Assembly (NCBI GenBank): GCA_947626415.1
Contig: CANQSA010000002.1
Coordinates: 1 to 64,000 of the forward strand
Reading direction: 5' to 3'
Length of the DNA: 64,000 nt
DNA from: an uncultured Lachnospiraceae bacterium
GTDB lineage: Bacteria; Bacillota; Clostridia; Lachnospirales; Lachnospiraceae
Shown in pieces: positions 53,832-63,226 of this stretch. The position numbers and the translations under genes are program-made. How positions within the stretch are numbered: the first letter of the stretch is position 1; each line of letters begins with the position of its first letter. The notes beneath the pieces are model-generated. The model was given only the letters and a program-made list of their open reading frames with translations, searched no databases and had not been told where the DNA came from.

Positions 53832-56048
53832 TCATACAATTTTATGAGTTCCGATCTGATTCCCGGCCGCAAACGCCCAGATTTCTCCCCGGCTGTCCCG
53901 AAACGTCAGCGGATGCAGCAGCAAAAGCCCTGCCTTTACCGGTTTCAGCTTTACCTTAGAAGAATCGTACCAATAACAGTGCCCTTTTTCCTCTGCCGGA
54001 ATATTCTCCGTGCCGGAAGACAGCCTGATCCCGGCCGCATCAATCGGGATCTCCTGAAACGGAAGCCATTTCAGGATATTGATACAATCCCGCAGCGACA
54101 GCATTTGCTCCCATGCGATCCGATCTGTGTCGGAATCCGGATATCTCTGCTCCACATAGAGGAATGTATTCTCTTCTCCCAGAATATCCGAAAAGTTCTG
54201 AACTATGATCTCATTTTCCGCTTCAGAGCGGAACCGTACCGACAGACCGCCTCCCTGATATCTGCCGGATGCATCCAGATCCAGCTTGGCAATCTCCACA
54301 CAGGTTATATTAACCCAGTGTGAATACAGAAATCCGCTCAGGGTTTCCACTACTTCGCTTGCCTTTTTCCCATTCAGATCCGCCTGTATGTTCCAGCGGA
54401 CTACCCGTTCCACCGTACAGATATGATCAACCTCTGCCGCCATCGGCCCGGTAAACGGAAAGGTAAATTCGGCATTTCTGTACTGGTGATACACCCACAG
54501 TCTTTCCTCAGCCTTTGCCGGCAGCACATAGGTAAAATAGGTACATTTTGAGTCATATCCCGGATTCCCCAGCCGGTAAGTCACCACATAACTGCCTTTG
54601 TTAAGAACTTCATAACTCAGTACGCCCAATTCCTGCTCACCGATTCTATTCTCCTCAGGACATTCCAGCCGATACTGCGCCAGTGAAGAATACTCTTTCT
54701 CTTTTTCCGGTTCGGCACGCTCCAGATAACCGTCTTTCTCATAAAGCGCGTACACTTCCAGTGTTTTTTCCAAAATATCAGTATCGCAATCTCCGACAAA
54801 CGTATATTCTTCCCGCTCCATCTTTATCTCATGCCCGTCTTCATCCGCATAATTCCTGTAAAATCCGGCAGCCCGGCAGGTGCCGTCATCCAGATAGCAA
54901 TACACCACCGTAACAGAATCCGAAACTTTATCTGTCACTACCTGTTTCACGTTTTTGTAGCGAAGCAATTCCGCTTCATCGAAATACTGCAGGAAATTCA
55001 GCGGAAACCCGCCGTCCAGGAGCCGCCCGCGGATTTCCTGCGCTTCCGTCTCCAATACCTCTCCCTGCTGCTCCGTCTTTACGATCTCCCGGCTCCAGTG
55101 CAGCGCAAAGGTCATTCCGCCTATTGCCAGCGCACAGAGCGCGGTACTCACGCTCCAGAGCAAAACAGGCTTTGCGAGCCCGACAGCTTTTGGCAGGCGG
55201 CATTCCGGATTATTTCTCCAGATCTGCATGCCTTCCCAAACTCGAAACGCCAGAAAACCCACGATCAGCGCAAACCCTGCCATTGCAATGGAAATATGGC
55301 AGGCTTCCGGAGCCCAAAAACGCAGCATTGCCACCCATACATAAATAACGGCTGCGATCCACACGCCCTGATCCTGCCGGCTGCGCAAAAACCGCTCTGC
55401 TTTTTCATTGAGCAGCTGGCTGCCTTCCATGAGGCGGTACAGCAGACATAGTTTCAAAGCCAGATCGATCACAAGATCCAGGATCAGAAATACTTTCGTG
55501 TAAAGCATAAAAACCGAAGCCTTCCAAACAGTCGAGCCGGCTTTATATAGGGTATAGCATTTCGCGTACCGGTATCCTTTCTGAAATTCCTCATTTTCTC
55601 CGCGGCAGCAGCAAAAACCGATCAAAAAGAACAGACTTCCGATCAATTCTACAATATGCGACCACAATGCACTTGTATCAAAAGAGAAATAAAGACATAC
55701 CACAGCAATCACAAAAAGAATGCTGACCGCCTGCTTCCGATTTTCTTCCTGCCTGGGCAAAAGGGGTTCTTCTGCAGAAAACGACATTTTCCAGTCCGTA
55801 TCGTCCGTTTTGACCGGAACGATATTGACCCTTCTTTCTGCCGTTTCCCCTTTTAACAGAGCGTCTACGGAAATATCCAGTGCCTCCGCCAGCGCCGACA
55901 GCAGTCCGACGTCCGGAAGCCCTTCCCCGTTTTCCCATTTCGACACTGCTTTATTGGTCACGCCAATCTTTTCCGCCAGATTCTTCTGCGTCAGTCCCAT
56001 TGCTTTCCGCCTGCGGGCAATCAATTCCCCTGTTGCTTTCCTATCCAT
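53832..56048 (-). CDS. XRE regulator with membrane region
   Basis: A 738-residue protein. An N-terminal XRE helix-turn-helix (about 5-65; LTQKNLAEKIGVTNKAVSKWENGEGLPDV) is followed by a cytoplasmic linker and then four to six membrane helices (about 105-310; AVSILFVIAVVCLYFSF, VFLILDLVIDLALKLCLLY, IAMAGFALIVGFLAF, LWSVSTALCALAIGGMTFAL). A region of about 410 residues follows, predicted outside the membrane, which I do not recognise. A DNA-binding head on a membrane body suggests a one-component sensor. The start at MDRKATG has AAGGAG 10 bases upstream. The neighbours are the sortase module. Confidence 0.85.
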   Translation of the reverse strand: MDRKATGELIARRRKAMGLTQKNLAEKIGVTNKAVSKWENGEGLPDVGLLSALAEALDISVDALLKGETAERRVNIVPVKTDDTDWKMSFSAEEPLLPRQEENRKQAVSILFVIAVVCLYFSFDTSALWSHIVELIGSLFFLIGFCCCRGENEEFQKGYRYAKCYTLYKAGSTVWKASVFMLYTKVFLILDLVIDLALKLCLLYRLMEGSQLLNEKAERFLRSRQDQGVWIAAVIYVWVAMLRFWAPEACHISIAMAGFALIVGFLAFRVWEGMQIWRNNPECRLPKAVGLAKPVLLWSVSTALCALAIGGMTFALHWSREIVKTEQQGEVLETEAQEIRGRLLDGGFPLNFLQYFDEAELLRYKNVKQVVTDKVSDSVTVVYCYLDDGTCRAAGFYRNYADEDGHEIKMEREEYTFVGDCDTDILEKTLEVYALYEKDGYLERAEPEKEKEYSSLAQYRLECPEENRIGEQELGVLSYEVLNKGSYVVTYRLGNPGYDSKCTYFTYVLPAKAEERLWVYHQYRNAEFTFPFTGPMAAEVDHICTVERVVRWNIQADLNGKKASEVVETLSGFLYSHWVNITCVEIAKLDLDASGRYQGGGLSVRFRSEAENEIIVQNFSDILGEENTFLYVEQRYPDSDTDRIAWEQMLSLRDCINILKWLPFQEIPIDAAGIRLSSGTENIPAEEKGHCYWYDSSKVKLKPVKAGLLLLHPLTFRDSRGEIWAFAAGNQIGTHKIV

Positions 56049-56081
56049 TTTTCCAGACTCCTTCTGTTCTCTTATCCCGTA

Positions 56082-56124
56082 AAAAAAGAAAAAGCAGTAA
56101 ACCGATCTTCCGTCTACTGCTTTT
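56082..56124 (-). terminator. terminator after sortase-partner gene
   Basis: AAAAGCAGTA pairs perfectly with TACTGCTTTT around a 15-base loop and is followed by TCTTTTTTTA on the minus strand. Confidence 0.85.
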
Positions 56125-56189
56125 ACTATACAAAAAATACTTTTATAATACAATCCACGAATCGTAGATTTCTTCCATTCTATACGGTT

Positions 56190-57080
56190 TTAATAGCGTA
56201 CATGGGATAATCTGCGGATCCTCGGCATTAACACAGAGAATCCGACCAGGATGATGGAAATTGCCGCGAACACCAGGCCGACTGTGTTAAACATCCGGAA
56301 GAGTCCTTCCACGTAGCACAATAAAAACCGCTTGATGGAAGCAGGATTCAGTGAAAGCTGCTCCAGCTTCAGCATCGGATAGATCAGATTGCCAAAGACA
56401 AAGCTGAGGATTGTTGCGGTAATAAAGGAATAGGACAAAAACCGCAGTCCGATTCCGCCGCCGCCTGCCAAACGGAACGTCAAAAACAGCGCAGCTAATG
56501 TGAACAGCGCCATCAGCAGGAGTCCGATCCAGAGTACCCGATCCAGCTTATGTACGATGATCGAAATCTGGCTCGCCAACGGGATCGCCACATAATTCAT
56601 ATAATCATAGCGGCAATATTCCGCCGTCATCTGCAGCGCTTCCTTTACGCTGTCCGTCACTTCCACGCCCTGCCGGACCGCATCTGCTTCCATGGCGTTG
56701 TAGATCTCTTCCTTGACATTTTCTCTGCTGTCCAGTTTCCCGTCCCCGTTATAGATCTCATCGATCGACGCTTTGATATCCTCGTTGATCCGATCCGGCG
56801 AAACCGGTCCCAGCAATACCTGTTTATCGAAACCGGAAGCCGCGCTGTAACTGGTATAGTTCTCCGAAAGTATCTGATATACATGCGCGCCAAACTCTCC
56901 GTCTTCCGCGCTCTGTTTCATATATTCCTCATTCCCTGCCGTAAAATAGATTACAACCAGGGAAGCGAAGACAGCCAGCAGCAGGGAAGTCAAAAACGCC
57001 ATTCCCAACGACCAGGGCAGCGATGCTCCTTTATACTGTTTCACGGAGCGGTTATTTTTTTCTCTCTTCTTTTCTTTCAT
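56190..57080 (-). CDS. sortase-linked membrane protein
   Basis: A 296-residue protein that I do not recognise by name. A basic cytoplasmic tip leads to one helix (about 24-46). An extracellular region of about 130 residues follows, acidic and helical (AEDGEFGAHVYQILSENYTS, DRINEDIKASIDEIYNGDGK). Three more helices (about 180-285) come after it. It starts 19 bp after the sortase stop, with GGAATGGAG upstream, so the two share a transcript. It may help the sortase or its substrate at the membrane; this is inference from position only. Confidence 0.75.
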   Translation of the reverse strand: MKEKKREKNNRSVKQYKGASLPWSLGMAFLTSLLLAVFASLVVIYFTAGNEEYMKQSAEDGEFGAHVYQILSENYTSYSAASGFDKQVLLGPVSPDRINEDIKASIDEIYNGDGKLDSRENVKEEIYNAMEADAVRQGVEVTDSVKEALQMTAEYCRYDYMNYVAIPLASQISIIVHKLDRVLWIGLLLMALFTLAALFLTFRLAGGGGIGLRFLSYSFITATILSFVFGNLIYPMLKLEQLSLNPASIKRFLLCYVEGLFRMFNTVGLVFAAISIILVGFSVLMPRIRRLSHVRY

Positions 57081-57099
57081 CGATCACACACTCCATTCC

Positions 57100-57813
57100 T
57101 TATCTGGTCGGGTCAATCTGCGGACCGGATACATAGTCGCAGTATACAAAATAACGCTGACGGGTAAAGCCCAGCTCTGAAAACGGATAACAGGTATACA
57201 GGATCAGGTTTTCTTCCTTCCGCGACAGATCGTAAGCACTGCTGTCTTCATAATCCACCGGCTTCATATCTACGATCTTATATATGTAAGTTCCGTAATG
57301 TGTTTTAATCGTAACCTTCTGCCCCACTTCCGCATGTCTCAGATCACTAAAGAACGTATGATTATGCCCCATGATAAAAATGGTGCGTCCGCGCCCCGGA
57401 ATCCCGACATCCAGATTATTGGAAAAGGTACCCGCGCCGCGGTTCAGGCTGGCATTGCTGCTCCCATAATACAGGGGACAGCTGATTGCCGTTCCGCCGA
57501 CCGTGATCGTTCCGTACCGGTCTCCCTCCTTCGGCATCGTAATGGACGACATCGGGATCGTATCTTCTTTCGAAGCGTCCGGTGTCTCCGGTTCCGTTGT
57601 TTCGTTCTGTTCCATCTGCTCCAGATCCGCCATCAGATCCCTGGGACCCTCTTCTTCTTCAGATTCATTCATAAAAACCTGTACCAGCCCCGCATACGGA
57701 GAAAGAAAGGAATAAGATAACAGCGCCAAAATCCCAAACGCAATCAGTGCGAACACCACGGGTACTGCCACACAGGCGCCCCAGTGTTCCCGAAAGAAAG
57801 ATTTCTGTTTCAT
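57100..57813 (-). CDS. sortase
   Basis: A 237-residue transpeptidase that would cleave a sorting signal and attach the protein to the wall. The N-terminal helix (about 15-40) anchors it. An acidic linker follows, then the sortase barrel from about residue 90. The catalytic triad is seen as His in IMGHNHTFFSDL, Cys in ILYTCYPFSELG and Arg in FTRQRYFVY. The TxTC pattern before the cysteine resembles class D or related sortases of Clostridia. The secreted QTGD protein encoded just upstream is its probable substrate. Confidence 0.9.
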   Translation of the reverse strand: MKQKSFFREHWGACVAVPVVFALIAFGILALLSYSFLSPYAGLVQVFMNESEEEEGPRDLMADLEQMEQNETTEPETPDASKEDTIPMSSITMPKEGDRYGTITVGGTAISCPLYYGSSNASLNRGAGTFSNNLDVGIPGRGRTIFIMGHNHTFFSDLRHAEVGQKVTIKTHYGTYIYKIVDMKPVDYEDSSAYDLSRKEENLILYTCYPFSELGFTRQRYFVYCDYVSGPQIDPTR

Positions 57814-57850
57814 AACATGTCCTCTCTATGATAAATAAAAATACCATTCT

Positions 57851-57888
57851 TAAAAAAGTAAACCGGAAATCTTTGCAGATCTCCGGTT
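57851..57888 (-). terminator. terminator between substrate and sortase
   Basis: AACCGGA pairs with TCCGGTT around a 14-base loop containing GATC/GATT pairing, followed by TACTTTTTTA on the minus strand. Leakage through it would set a high substrate-to-sortase ratio. Confidence 0.75.
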
Positions 57889-57925
57889 CCTTATTTCCAA
57901 ACAAAGTGCATAAAACCGATAAGGT

Positions 57926-58555
57926 CTATGCTACGCTGCGGCTCTTAACTGCACCTACAGCTAATGCTAATACAACGCCTGCACAGCAGATCAGTGCTAA
58001 TACAGCATTGCTGTCACCAGTCTGAACGCCTGCCGGATTGTTATTAGCCGGTTTGTCAGCCGGTGTGTTATCAGCCGGTTTGTCAGCCGGTGTATCAGTC
58101 GGCTCATCCGTTGCAGCAACTTCAATGCTCGGGGTTGCCTCAGCAGTCTCAGTCTTTACTGTTGCTGTTACAGCAAAACCGTCTGCAGTAATCTCAACTG
58201 CGACTTTGTCAACTGTAATACCAGCCTGTACCAGAATGTCGTTTACATCTGCCAATGCCTGCTGAGCGATTGCCAGAGCAGCTTCCTTACTTTCTGCAGC
58301 CTGCACATCTGCAATAGCCTTATCAGCCTTTGCAACTAACTCCTCGCGATTTGCCTGAAGTACACGCAGATCGTCATCGCTCAGAGAGTCGATCACATCT
58401 GCCATGCTGCTTGCATCGATGTTATAAGAAGCCAGCTGTGCCTTGATTTCTGCGATTGCCTTATCACGGAAAGTTTCCTCAGCAGCAAATACGCTGACAG
58501 CGCTTGTTACAACCATGACTAAAGCCATTACTAATGCAAAAAAACTCTTCTTCAT
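57926..58555 (-). CDS. secreted protein with QTGD sorting signal
   Basis: A 209-residue surface protein. The signal peptide (MKKSFFALVMALVMVVTSAV, cleavage after VFA) is followed by an alanine-rich helical domain (about 25-115) and a small beta segment (VAVEITADGFAVTATVKTET). A Pro/Thr/Ala/Asp linker with TPADKPADN repeats comes next. The C-terminus is a sortase signal: GVQTGDSN, a hydrophobic helix and the basic end KSRSVA. The sorted motif is TGD rather than LPxTG. It is encoded first in the sortase module, with its own promoter and terminator. The function on the wall is unknown; a structural or coat role fits the composition. Confidence 0.85.
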   Translation of the reverse strand: MKKSFFALVMALVMVVTSAVSVFAAEETFRDKAIAEIKAQLASYNIDASSMADVIDSLSDDDLRVLQANREELVAKADKAIADVQAAESKEAALAIAQQALADVNDILVQAGITVDKVAVEITADGFAVTATVKTETAEATPSIEVAATDEPTDTPADKPADNTPADKPANNNPAGVQTGDSNAVLALICCAGVVLALAVGAVKSRSVA

Positions 58556-58768: not shown

Positions 58769-59771
58769 TTACCCCCTGCACACCCGTTTTAAACGGTAAG
58801 CCAGTTTATACGGACGGTACAAATGATGGGTAAGAATGAAAAACCATTTCTCATCCGCCGCAGTCGCGGGAATAAAATACGCTTTCCATTGCAGGATCCG
58901 GCGGATACACGCGTTTTCGTCTTTGCGGTACTGATTTCCCCGCGCCCGCGCCAGATTGCGCAGCAGCGCCATATCTGCCTTTACCATCAGATTATAAGTA
59001 AGCGGCGTAAGTTCCGGGAATTTCTCTTCTATCTCTTTTTTCTTCTGTTTTGCAAAATACAGGATATCAAATACACGTTCTGAAACCGGCGAGCGCGAAA
59101 TACTGTTTTCACTCAGACGGTACCGCAGTACGGGAACATCAAAAACCGCCACTTTGGGCTGCTTTAACAGACATTGGAATACAAAATAACTGTCCTCATG
59201 CATCTGCCGGCCCTGCACAAAACGAGTTTCACCGATCCATTCTTTTTTATACAGCTTTCCCCATGCCGCATATGTGGCGAGATGATCCTCCAGGGAATGC
59301 CGCAGTCCCTCCGTTCCGTTCCAGATTTCTTTTTTATTCGGATACACACCGGCTGTTTCGCTTCCGTCCGGAGAAAAGGTTATCTTTTTGCCGACTGCGA
59401 TATCGCACTGCTCCCGCATAAGCGACCGGTATAAAAATTCCAGCGCGTCGGGCAGCAGCATATCATCAGAATCCAGAAATACGATATATGCGCCTTTTGC
59501 CGCCTCCAGACCGATATTCCTTGCCTGCGATACCCCCCCCCGAATGGGCGCGGGTAATTACTGTAACATTTTCTTTATCCTCTGCTGTTTTCCTTACGAT
59601 CTCCAGGGTTTTGTCGGAAGAACCGTCATCCACAACGATCAGCTCCCATGCCGGATACGTCTGCGCGTAAACCGATTGAACGCACTCGGCGATCCAGTTC
59701 TGCGCGTTATAGGCGGGAACGATCACACTGATCAGCTGATTTTTCGTTTCTGCTTCCATTTTAATCTCCAC
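58769..59771 (-). CDS. family 2 glycosyltransferase, frameshifted at G9
   Basis: Two frames together encode a GT-A fold transferase of about 335 residues. The first frame (59771 to the G tract) has the nucleotide-sugar start ISVIVPAYNAQNWIAECVQS and WELIVVDDGSSDKT, and breaks in AHSGG. The second (from the tract to 58769) continues RNIGLEAAKGAYIVFLDSDD (DXD motif) and the acceptor region. Removing one G from a run of nine joins the two exactly at the conserved GVSQARN. The last gene of the polysaccharide operon, it probably adds one sugar to the repeat unit. It is either a phase-off state or a sequencing error; the frames are otherwise undamaged. Confidence 0.82.
59533..59541. repeat. G9/C9 homopolymer tract
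   Basis: Nine consecutive C on the given strand (G in the coding sense) lie inside the glycosyltransferase gene at the codons for Ser-Gly-Gly. Eight would keep the frame; nine break it. I noticed no other run this long inside a gene of this window. Confidence 0.95.
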
Positions 59772-59794
59772 TCCTTCGTTCCGGCATCCGCGCC

Positions 59795-60991
59795 TCAGAC
59801 CGTTTCGGAAAACGTATCCGGCGCAGACGGATCAAATTTTTCATTGGCCCACATCACGGTCACCAGATCCGCAGAGTCCGAAAGGTTCGTGATACTGTGC
59901 GTATAGCCCGGCAGCATATAGACCGCCTCCGGCTTTTCCCCGCTTACTTTAAATTCCATAACTTCCCCTGTTTCTATCTTTCTCTGGCGGATCAGACCTT
60001 CTCCTGCCACCACAATGAAAATTTCCCATTTTGTATGATGCCAGTGCTGTCCTTTGGTACAGCCCGGCCGGATTCTGTTCACACTTACCTGCCCGCAATC
60101 CTCTGTCTTGATCAGTTCCGTAAAACTTCCTCTGAGATCGCTGCTGCCCGTCAGCGCAACAGCCGCCTGCTCCTTCGGCAGATAACTGATATAGGTCGAA
60201 TACAGTTTTTTCGCAAAGCTGTTCTTCGGGATCTTAGGCATCTCCAGCGTCCGCGGCTGTGCCTTAAACTCCTCCAGCAGCTTCGCGATCTCTCCGAGCG
60301 TTACCCGATGCGTTACGGGCGCAAAACAGTATTTCCCCGTTTTCTGCGGGATCGCGCTGATCCCCGCGAATTCGCAGCGATGCTCTTTTCCCCCCAGCGC
60401 ATCCAGCAATTCCCGAATCAGATCGTCAATATACAGAAGTTCCAGCTCCGTGTTCGGATCGTGAACGGTAAACGGCTGTCCGTGCGCCGCATTAAAGCAA
60501 AAGGTAGCGACCGCACTGTTATAATTCGGCCGGCACCATTTGCCAAACAGATTCGGGAAGCGATAAACCAGCACCCTGGCCCCCGTTTCGCGGGCGTAGG
60601 CAAAAAACAAGTCTTCGCCTTCCTTCTTGCTTCTCCCGTAAATCCCGTCATATCTGCCGATCAGAGAAGCCTGGATCGAGCCGGACAGCATAACCGGACA
60701 GGTATTTTTCTTTTGTTTTAATAGTTCCAGCAGCCGGGCTGTCAAATCGACATTTCCTTCCCGATACGCCTGGGCGCTGTCCGAACGGTTCACGCCGGCC
60801 AGATGGTATACAAAATCGGCCTTTTCGCAGAATTCCTCCAACAGTTCCGGCGGTGTCCCGATATCATACGAAAAGATCGCATCGATCTGAATCTCCGGTC
60901 TTGTCCTGTCTTTTCCTTCCGCGATATTCCGAAGAGCCGCTGTAAGGTTTTTTCCGACAAACCCATCGGCTCCGGTGATCAAAATTTTCAT
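59795..60991 (-). CDS. capF: CapF-like bifunctional reductase/cupin
   Basis: A 398-residue protein matching the two-domain CapF layout. The N-terminal SDR domain (ITGADGFVGKNL dinucleotide site; YGRSKKEGEDL catalytic Tyr/Lys) comes first. A C-terminal cupin follows from about residue 280 (GCTKGQHWHHTKWEIFIVV with metal-binding His residues; MLPGYTHSITNL). CapF epimerises and reduces the CapE product on the way to UDP-N-acetyl-L-fucosamine. I start at MKILITG with GGAATGGAG upstream, not at the longer frame that begins inside the acyltransferase gene. The GT2 gene follows by 23 bp. Confidence 0.88.
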   Translation of the reverse strand: MKILITGADGFVGKNLTAALRNIAEGKDRTRPEIQIDAIFSYDIGTPPELLEEFCEKADFVYHLAGVNRSDSAQAYREGNVDLTARLLELLKQKKNTCPVMLSGSIQASLIGRYDGIYGRSKKEGEDLFFAYARETGARVLVYRFPNLFGKWCRPNYNSAVATFCFNAAHGQPFTVHDPNTELELLYIDDLIRELLDALGGKEHRCEFAGISAIPQKTGKYCFAPVTHRVTLGEIAKLLEEFKAQPRTLEMPKIPKNSFAKKLYSTYISYLPKEQAAVALTGSSDLRGSFTELIKTEDCGQVSVNRIRPGCTKGQHWHHTKWEIFIVVAGEGLIRQRKIETGEVMEFKVSGEKPEAVYMLPGYTHSITNLSDSADLVTVMWANEKFDPSAPDTFSETV

Positions 60992-61016
60992 TCTCTTCTC
61001 CATTCCTTCCGTTTTC

Positions 61017-62042
61017 TTAATGCGCATACTTTAACCATCGCAGATACGGCTTCTTCTCAAAATGCAGGATCAGCAGACTTGTCACAAGGCATCCGCATAC
61101 CGCAAACGTATAGCAAAACAGCGGATACGCGATCTGCATCCGCCGCAGCAGAGCGGACGCCACCGTCAGAAACGGCATATGCGTTGTATAGATCACGGTG
61201 CTGATCTTTCTTAAATTGGGCCCCGCGGCATAGTATTTCGCCGGAATCGACCGGATCAGATCGAACAGAACCGGTACAAACAGCGCCAGCATGAGATAGC
61301 AGTCATAATTAAGCCTGCCGGTTTTGATCCTCACAAAGTTCCACTCAAGCCACAGTCCTGCGCCGGATAGTACCAGCAGCACCGCTTTTCGCCAAAATAA
61401 ACCATCCGTTCTTTCCCGCGCTTCCGCAAACCGTTTGCCGACCGCAACCCAGAATAAGGCTACGGGAAAACTCGTATAAGCAGGCGTAAAGATCTGATCG
61501 TAAGCGTTTACGGCAGAAGAAAGAATCGGAATCTTGTCAAAATATAAATGATAGTAGGCCGAACGAAACGCGATTAACAAATAGAGCAGAAATGTAATCC
61601 GGCACAAAGCCCTGCCGGACAGATATTTCGAGGCAAAGGAAATGAGGACGACTGCGATCACGCTTGCCATAATATACCAGGACGCCGGAAACGTACTGGC
61701 AAAAAAGAAATCCCGCAAAAGCAGCAGAAGCCCTTTTCCCACGCCCTCTGCGAACCAGTCCCGAACGTAGATGGTATACGGCAGCAGCAAGATAAAGTAA
61801 AACGCATACAGCCGCAGATTTCTGACAATATACCGTTTGATCACACTTCGCTTATCCGCGGAGGCGTTTACTTTAAGAAACAGAAAATAGGAAGATAGGA
61901 TAAAGAAAAGCGGCACCGCGATCCGAAGCCAAGGATATAAGACCTCAGGAAACAGGGAGGCATGGATTGCGGCAACCATAAGCGCCAGGATCAGTTTAAC
62001 GATATCAAATACCGAATTGGAAGTCCGATTCTCTGTACTCAT
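61017..62042 (-). CDS. acyltransferase family 3 membrane protein
   Basis: A protein of about 341 residues with ten hydrophobic helices, typical of the OafA/WecH-like acyltransferase 3 family. The start of the domain (FDIVKLILALMVAAIHASLF, with the conserved His in AAIHAS) and the following IAVPLFFILSSYFLF match it. It probably acetylates a sugar of the surface polymer. I start at MSTEN, whose ATG overlaps the capG stop by four bases and has AAGGCGGT upstream. Confidence 0.85.
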   Translation of the reverse strand: MSTENRTSNSVFDIVKLILALMVAAIHASLFPEVLYPWLRIAVPLFFILSSYFLFLKVNASADKRSVIKRYIVRNLRLYAFYFILLLPYTIYVRDWFAEGVGKGLLLLLRDFFFASTFPASWYIMASVIAVVLISFASKYLSGRALCRITFLLYLLIAFRSAYYHLYFDKIPILSSAVNAYDQIFTPAYTSFPVALFWVAVGKRFAEARERTDGLFWRKAVLLVLSGAGLWLEWNFVRIKTGRLNYDCYLMLALFVPVLFDLIRSIPAKYYAAGPNLRKISTVIYTTHMPFLTVASALLRRMQIAYPLFCYTFAVCGCLVTSLLILHFEKKPYLRWLKYAH

Positions 62043-63226
62043 AGCAGACCGCCTTTTTTCCATACGACCTGGTTGACAATACCGGTATAGGACTGAATGA
62101 TCTTTACCACTTTTGTGCTGACATTCTCCTCTATATAATCCGGCACTGGAATCCCCTCGTCTTTCTTTTCATTCATCCGCACCGCAAGCTCTACTGCCTG
62201 CAGCAATCCCTTCCCGGTGATCCCGGACAGTACAAAACACCCTTTTTCCAATGCTTCCGGTCTCTCCGTAGACGTCCGGATACAAACTGCCGGAAACGGT
62301 TTTCCGATACCGGTAAAAAAGCTGCTCTCCTCCGGAAGCGTACCGCTGTCGGAAACTACACAGAACGCGTGCATCTGCAGACAGTTATAATCATGAAATC
62401 CCAGCGGCTCATGCTGCTTTACCCGTTCATCCAATAAAAATCCGCTCTCTTCCAGACGCTTCCTGCTTCTCGGATGACAGGAATACAGGATCGGAAGATC
62501 ATAACGGGCCGCCATCAGATTGACCGCTTCAAATAAAGAGCGGAAATTTTCTTTTGTATCGATATTTTCTTCCCGATGTGCGGAAAGAAGGATATATTTT
62601 TTCTTTTCCAAACCCAACCGGCTGTGGATATCACTGTTCTCGATCTCGGCAAGATTTTTTCTAAGCACTTCCGCCATAGGGGATCCGGTCACAAAGGTTC
62701 TTTCCTTCGGCAGACCGCACTCCGCAAGATATCTTCTGGCATGTTCTGAATACGCCAGATTGACATCGCTGATGATATCCACGATCCTGCGGTTCGTCTC
62801 CTCCGGAAGACACTCGTCCTTGCACCGGTTTCCGGCCTCCATATGGAAGATCGGAATATGCAGCCGCTTCGCGCTGATCACGGACAGACAGGAATTTGTA
62901 TCGCCCAGCACCAGAACCGCATCCGGTTTTATGGCAGCCATCAGCTGATAAGAGGCGGAAATGATATTTCCCATCGTTTCCCCCAGATCCTGCCCGACTG
63001 CGTCCAGATAGACGTCCGGATCCTGAAGTTTCAGATCCCGAAAAAATACGCCATTCAGCGTATAATCATAATTCTGCCCCGTATGCGCCAAAACAGTATC
63101 AAAATAATTTCTGCATTTTGGGATCACAGCGGAAAGGCGGATGATCTCCGGGCGCGTGCCTACGATGATCAATAATTTTATTTTTCCGTTCTCCTGAAAA
63201 TGAACACTTGAATAATCCGATCTCAT
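62039..63226 (-). CDS. capG: CapG-like UDP-GlcNAc 2-epimerase family
   Basis: A 395-residue non-hydrolysing UDP-sugar 2-epimerase of the WecB/CapG type. GTRPEIIRLSAVI (substrate loop), HTGQNYDYTLNG, VLGDTNSC, HMEAGNRCKDECLPEETNR and SDSGTLPEES are the family motifs. Between capE and capF-like genes it most likely performs the last step to UDP-N-acetyl-L-fucosamine, not ManNAc formation. GGGAG precedes the ATG. Confidence 0.88.
   Translation of the reverse strand: MRSDYSSVHFQENGKIKLLIIVGTRPEIIRLSAVIPKCRNYFDTVLAHTGQNYDYTLNGVFFRDLKLQDPDVYLDAVGQDLGETMGNIISASYQLMAAIKPDAVLVLGDTNSCLSVISAKRLHIPIFHMEAGNRCKDECLPEETNRRIVDIISDVNLAYSEHARRYLAECGLPKERTFVTGSPMAEVLRKNLAEIENSDIHSRLGLEKKKYILLSAHREENIDTKENFRSLFEAVNLMAARYDLPILYSCHPRSRKRLEESGFLLDERVKQHEPLGFHDYNCLQMHAFCVVSDSGTLPEESSFFTGIGKPFPAVCIRTSTERPEALEKGCFVLSGITGKGLLQAVELAVRMNEKKDEGIPVPDYIEENVSTKVVKIIQSYTGIVNQVVWKKGGLL

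Follow-up and report, generated by a model that had tools for sequence, protein, structure and literature searches.

Three consecutive minus-strand genes, encoding in this order a small exported substrate, a sortase and a four-helix membrane protein (the partner), form a module in the DNA of an uncultured Lachnospiraceae bacterium. The window, i.e. the whole stretch that we analysed, comprises 64,000 nucleotides. Sequence comparisons strongly support a dedicated sortase that has a single linked substrate and a distinct signal, and also a unit of substrate and partner, which probably belongs to the capsule machinery. The three-gene set is present in about one in ten Lachnospiraceae genomes, usually beside capsule-making genes. 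We consider it moderately probable that the enzyme is a dedicated sortase of the capsule or exopolysaccharide machinery and fixes one ectodomain of the capsule system to the cell wall. The relevant features of the window are as follows.

57926..58555, minus strand: sortase substrate, 209 aa, ATG start (open reading frame and tail layout)
57860..57889, minus strand: strong hairpin like an intrinsic terminator, in the gap between substrate and sortase (stem of 13 pairs, loop of 4 nt, T-rich tail)
57100..57813, minus strand: sortase, 237 aa, closest to class D (Pfam and NCBIfam models, alignments, tree)
56190..57080, minus strand: membrane partner, 296 aa, unnamed family (TM1, outer helical domain of ~130 residues, TM2-4)
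58769..63226, minus strand: capsule-type sugar genes, upstream of the module and on the same strand (Pfam)

The three-gene module and its recurrence

An earlier note on this DNA had described an exported protein ending in VQTGD, a helix and KSR, followed by a sortase and a four-helix membrane protein, with a terminator between substrate and enzyme. Both the gene order and the hairpin (57889-57860) are borne out on the minus strand. Because of its position after the substrate gene, the hairpin could result in much substrate and little sortase. The substrate starts with an N-terminal signal peptide and continues with an Ala-rich helical domain, a linker rich in Pro/Thr/Asn and Pro/Ala, the GVQTGD motif, a TM helix and the KSR tail; its C-terminus reads GVQTGDSNAVLALICCAGVVLALAVGAVKSRSVA. 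In position, size and tail it matches the substrates at 23 other loci. A genome of the same genus (G001, locus L018) carries the same gene set with the substrate doubled in tandem, the two copies being nearly identical. The next gene after the module (window 53832-56153) encodes a 773-aa protein with N-terminal HTH_3 and apparent membrane helices, and its counterpart adjoins the module in the same-genus genome too (L018:6321-8651).

The window partner alone finds matches in 9 of 98 genomes, its own included, and those outside the genus share 18-29% identity with it. Around these matches, secreted protein, sortase and partner follow each other as in the window. With a profile of nine partners, 44 of 397 Lachnospiraceae genomes give matches (a few being weak), and a substrate-domain profile built without the window sequence matches in 43 of the same 397. 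The earlier note had proposed a search for the gene order in other genomes. The order substrate-sortase-partner turned out to be constant at all 24 sortase-bearing loci with a substrate, so the arrangement is not due to chance. Beyond the family, a scan of 299 genomes from across the phylum gave two marginal partner matches (E > 1e-4) besides the window itself, and no others. One genome from another family of the same order (G067, locus L019) has sortase and partner, with no adjacent substrate seen. Relatives on mobile elements were also sought: the window partner had no match in viral contigs, one fusion protein none in plasmids and one ortholog partner none in phages.

The sortase and its sorting signal

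The enzyme matches Pfam Sortase (PF04203) with E 4.8e-18 and has the His/Cys/Arg triad of the superfamily. His150, Cys208 and Arg220 are invariant in an alignment of eight sequences; among 23 sequences His150 and Cys208 remain so and Arg220 is conserved in at least 90%. The top sequence match of its profile in the PDB is 2ln7, an LPXTG-site transpeptidase. Class D sortases (NF058671 and NF033746) are the closest curated models, and both scores lie under the curated cut-offs: 87.9 bits (cut-off 165) and 94.3 bits (cut-off 140) for the window sortase, 93.3 and 99.9 bits against the same two cut-offs for that of the relative L084. The module further differs from class D in having K, N or V in place of the signal proline, a single linked substrate and a membrane partner. 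The LPxTA(TN) substrate signal of NF058671 is absent; the module signals are GVQTG, IKQTG, IKNTG and the like.

A profile of 23 module sortases, with a match threshold of E <= 1e-60, finds the enzyme in 24 of 397 Lachnospiraceae genomes, as a single copy each and at a module locus every time. Since this profile already includes most module sortases, a tree was built as a check. In it, 25 module sortases form one supported group (98/93). Seven other sortases of the window genome, which has ten altogether, fall outside this group. At two loci the module has a second sortase close by, encoded on the other strand, which falls inside the module sortase clade of the tree (L023:9758-10564 and L071:5556-6230).

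The end of the substrate has the layout of an LPxTG-type sorting signal, i.e. a short TG motif, a hydrophobic helix and a positive tail. The proline at motif position 2 is absent from the signals of both the window and the relatives; the statement of the earlier note that the signal is not LPxTG is supported. The signal of the family is [I/V][K/N/R]xTG, typically IKQTG or IKNTG; position 2 is V in the window (GVQTG) and K, N, R, H, V or T in relatives. The earlier note had also seen TGD as the hallmark, which has to be abandoned: among sortase-linked substrates, D after TG occurs only in the window genus. As a genome-wide signal TGD was likewise rejected, as the window genome has 59 QTGD-coding sites, yet QTGD followed by a sorting-like tail was found in only three of its proteins. 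The two besides the module substrate carry proline (VPQTGD, SPQTGD).

Presence of the signal follows presence of the sortase. An automatic rule ([IVMAG][KRNHQTV]xTG ahead of a C-terminal helix) was positive for 23 of 24 substrates adjoining a module sortase and for 0 of 24 without one (Fisher p = 1.6e-12). The sole miss, L072, has VQVTG, lost through helix prediction, and one of the sortase-less substrates is truncated; the corrected counts are 24/24 and 0/23. Substrates without a sortase include unfused examples (L095, L102, L108-L110). Because these lack the signal as well, fusion alone cannot account for its loss.

Signals found in the window genome near sortases or at QTGD sites are of LPxTG, IPTTG, MPSTG, VPTTG, VPQTG and SPQTG types, all with proline save that of the module substrate. 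The other sortase clusters of this genome use LPxTG, IPTTG, VPTTG and similar signals. Matching of the module sortase to many LPxTG-like substrates, named by the earlier note as grounds for dropping its proposal, was therefore not seen. Processing of the substrate by the module sortase is well supported by this pairing, as far as sequences can predict it. Surface proteins and pili are what sortases are known for. Among class B/C clusters of sortase and substrate (pilin islands) there is a resemblance to the module in that the enzyme gene adjoins the substrate gene, but the module has a single small non-pilin substrate.

Natural fusions of the substrate domain

In several genomes, parts of the module are joined in one polypeptide. 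At L062-L068 and others, the substrate domain, its own helix and the partner form a single protein of ~505-640 aa, and these loci lack a module sortase. The partner part of these fusions was found by a profile built without them, with E down to 7e-48. At L076, substrate and sortase are a single protein, with the signal retained. A gene for a secreted Ig-like (Big_2) repeat protein lies directly upstream of several substrate-partner fusions (L063-L067); L065:240-1772 is the one such gene with Pfam proof.

Six further fusions, called by script from their layout, consist of the substrate domain, then one helix and then a phosphatase domain of the CpsB_CapC type, which Pfam shows in three of the six.

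L096:5029-6765, ectodomain-helix-CpsB_CapC fusion
L097:4760-6226, ectodomain-helix-CpsB_CapC fusion
L098:4877-6376, ectodomain-helix-CpsB_CapC fusion
L099:4148-5758, ectodomain-helix-CpsB_CapC fusion
L100:4780-6126, ectodomain-helix-CpsB_CapC fusion (ends at the contig end)
L104:1764-3920, ectodomain-helix-CpsB_CapC fusion

These are apparent transmembrane tyrosine phosphatases, and in most of the six loci they precede Wzz and BY-kinase genes. With the signal peptide removed, hhalign shows homology between the sortase-linked ectodomains and those of the fused proteins (98.7%, E 1.5e-16). The ectodomain of the window is not alignable with that of the family, again without the signal peptide (hhalign probability 12%). 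Because it has diverged too far, our inference for the window copy runs via the partner, the sortase, the gene order, the sorting tail and the capsule neighbours. The ectodomain family has no Pfam or NCBIfam name. The structure model of the substrate is of low confidence (pLDDT 67) and found no match in the PDB.

Capsule context

The usual neighbours of the module in relatives are a CpsB_CapC phosphatase, Wzz and a BY-kinase-like ATPase; they were recognised with Pfam in L065 and with local profiles at other loci. CpsB lies within the retrieved stretch at 33 of 50 loci, on the module strand every time and no more than 300 bases away in 28. When only loci with both sortase and substrate are counted, CpsB, Wzz or the kinase is found within that stretch in 13 of 24, and none of these in the remaining 11. 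This context was missed by the earlier note, which had seen a dedicated one-substrate system for surface display. The self-contained module with one substrate is supported. A free-standing display, as worded there, is not supported: most relatives are in capsule operons with CpsB, Wzz and the tyrosine kinase, and their ectodomain often stays in the membrane or forms one protein with the CpsB phosphatase.

In relatives, the module lies co-directionally beside CpsB, Wzz or kinase, or is fused to one of them. This does not hold for the window copy, whose genome has its CpsB-Wzz-kinase operon on contig C3. Here the module is the downstream end of an operon-like run of capsule-type sugar genes: glycosyltransferase pieces, a CapF-like epimerase with Polysacc_synt_C, an acyltransferase and a UDP-GlcNAc 2-epimerase. 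By-eye reading of the L090 sequence shows that the run continues upstream, past the window, where genes for an epimerase and for a flippase-like protein follow. A family 2 glycosyltransferase in it is apparently split across two ORFs in different frames (58769-59771), and ORF 59466-59771 covers only profile positions 1-66 of 168; this suggests that the capsule gene has a frameshift or was affected by an error in sequencing. Two giant exported proteins (1947 and 2205 aa) are encoded upstream of the capsule genes, at L090:6141-18606 (G000:C2 about 68140-80605); their C-terminal parts carry long repeats of the YYY/G type.

The membrane partner

The partner has no match in Pfam or NCBIfam, in agreement with the earlier note, which had placed it in an undescribed family. 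In the model of an ortholog (pLDDT 86), TM1 is followed by an outer region, which is helical and about 115-130 residues long, and then by TM2-4. The best PDB match of this model is the lipoprotein transacylase Lit (PF07314), with the same layout of TM1, outer domain and TM2-4 (Z 11.1, 186 of 224 residues aligned, 6% identity). This Z is just 1.5 above unrelated helical proteins, and values below ~13 may arise by chance for helical bundles. Membership in the Lit family was rejected, as Pfam was negative and local hhalign insignificant. PF07314 has no match in the window genome, and none at E<=1 among the partners of the window, L082 and L111. An alignment of 29 partners has no invariant column and only two tyrosines above 90%, hence the catalytic His of Lit is not conserved.

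The earlier note would have given up its proposal if the partner were widespread without any sortase. In that simple form this is not the case: most partner copies without a sortase have the substrate fused or encoded adjacent, and only weak distant relatives stand alone. Such relatives at L114:4255-5412, L115:4896-5843 and L116:4589-6426 (best E each 1e-12 to 1e-18) have no sortase or substrate nearby, and one pair of them is in tandem. Judged by these similarities, the partner appears to be a member of a wider unnamed membrane family.

Possible role of the module

We suggest the following model. The small substrate protein would be exported and then held in the membrane by its C-terminal helix. 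The co-encoded sortase would cut T|G in the proline-less signal (GVQTG in the window, IKQTG/IKNTG in relatives) and join the freed ectodomain to peptidoglycan. The four-helix partner would act with the ectodomain at the membrane, beside the complex of Wzz, BY-kinase and CpsB, and the wall-fixed ectodomain would most likely help to retain the capsule at the surface or to position it there. The T-G cleavage, peptidoglycan as acceptor and capsule retention or siting as outcome are steps that we infer.

This model is supported by the co-occurrence of sortase and signal, the locus-bound sortase clade, the fusions, the proximity of CpsB, the sugar operon and the genetics of SrtB4. In M. gnavus, srtB4 shares a capsule cluster with genes for an LCP enzyme and for a tyrosine phosphatase and is needed for capsule presentation on the cell; the mutant is complemented by a plasmid copy, and the sortase was judged unlikely to make capsule directly, with no mechanism given (Obana et al. 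2026, PMC13121745). We liken the two by cluster description, not by sequence: both are Lachnospiraceae sortases in a capsule cluster with tyrosine phosphatase. The main text of that paper does not describe substrate, signal, partner or mechanism (PMC13121745). The LCP enzyme is inside the SrtB4 cluster, whereas LCP genes are away from the module in the window and the relatives examined (none seen beside it in 25 genomes). Three observations count against our model, namely the position of the CpsB-Wzz-kinase operon on contig C3, the presence of CpsB, Wzz or kinase at only 13 of 24 sortase-plus-substrate loci, and the unalignable ectodomain of the window. Moreover, some lineages keep the ectodomain in the membrane, so wall anchoring is not always needed.

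Exosortases are multi-pass membrane enzymes with many substrates, mostly in Gram-negatives; the module differs by a true sortase, one substrate and its occurrence in Firmicutes. The PEP-CTERM/exosortase (EpsH) system is like it in having a C-terminal sorting signal and a processing enzyme from exopolysaccharide loci (PMC1569441).

The ectodomain might instead serve the cycle of capsule tyrosine phosphorylation as a sensor on the outside, controlling CpsB/BY-kinase activity while bound to the partner or the phosphatase, and switched off or on when sortase cleavage releases it from the membrane. The CpsB fusions tie the outer domain directly to a regulatory phosphatase, and the partner fusions lie ahead of CpsB. 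The partner, however, has no recognised signalling domain, and the capsule loss in M. gnavus without SrtB4 fits retention equally with regulation; we regard the sensor, the main rival of our model, as possible, with some doubt. A more elaborate scheme, speculative and in our opinion unlikely, makes the ectodomain the outside subunit of transmembrane control over capsule tyrosine phosphorylation, in three interchangeable wirings (CpsB-fused, partner-fused and sortase-freed), with sortase transfer to the wall as a switch coupling capsule output to cell-wall synthesis.

An ordinary adhesin-like pair of surface protein and sortase, travelling with polysaccharide loci by happenstance, would agree with the window copy not being beside CpsB-Wzz-kinase and with the 11 of 24 loci without any of the three nearby. 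We find it improbable, because CpsB adjoins the module at 33 of 50 loci and shares its strand at each of them, and fusions to CpsB and partner are hard to explain for an adhesin. It is very improbable that the sortase links the substrate covalently to a polysaccharide amine, giving a protein-linked capsule: unusual amines are acceptable to sortases and the module is associated with capsule loci, but the ectodomain stays in the membrane in sortase-free lineages. Hardly any weight can be given to a Lit-like lipid-modifying partner acting on the sortase pathway or lipoproteins, as its top PDB match is offset by the 6% identity, a Z that can be due to chance for helical bundles, the insignificant local profile comparison and the lack of a conserved catalytic His in 29 sequences.

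Taken together, a whole sortase lineage apparently serves just a single small protein, which belongs to the capsule machinery. The natural fusions show which parts act together, and those of ectodomain and CpsB suggest that capsule tyrosine phosphorylation receives an input from outside. The module also gives concrete candidates for the capsule loss in the M. gnavus sortase mutant.
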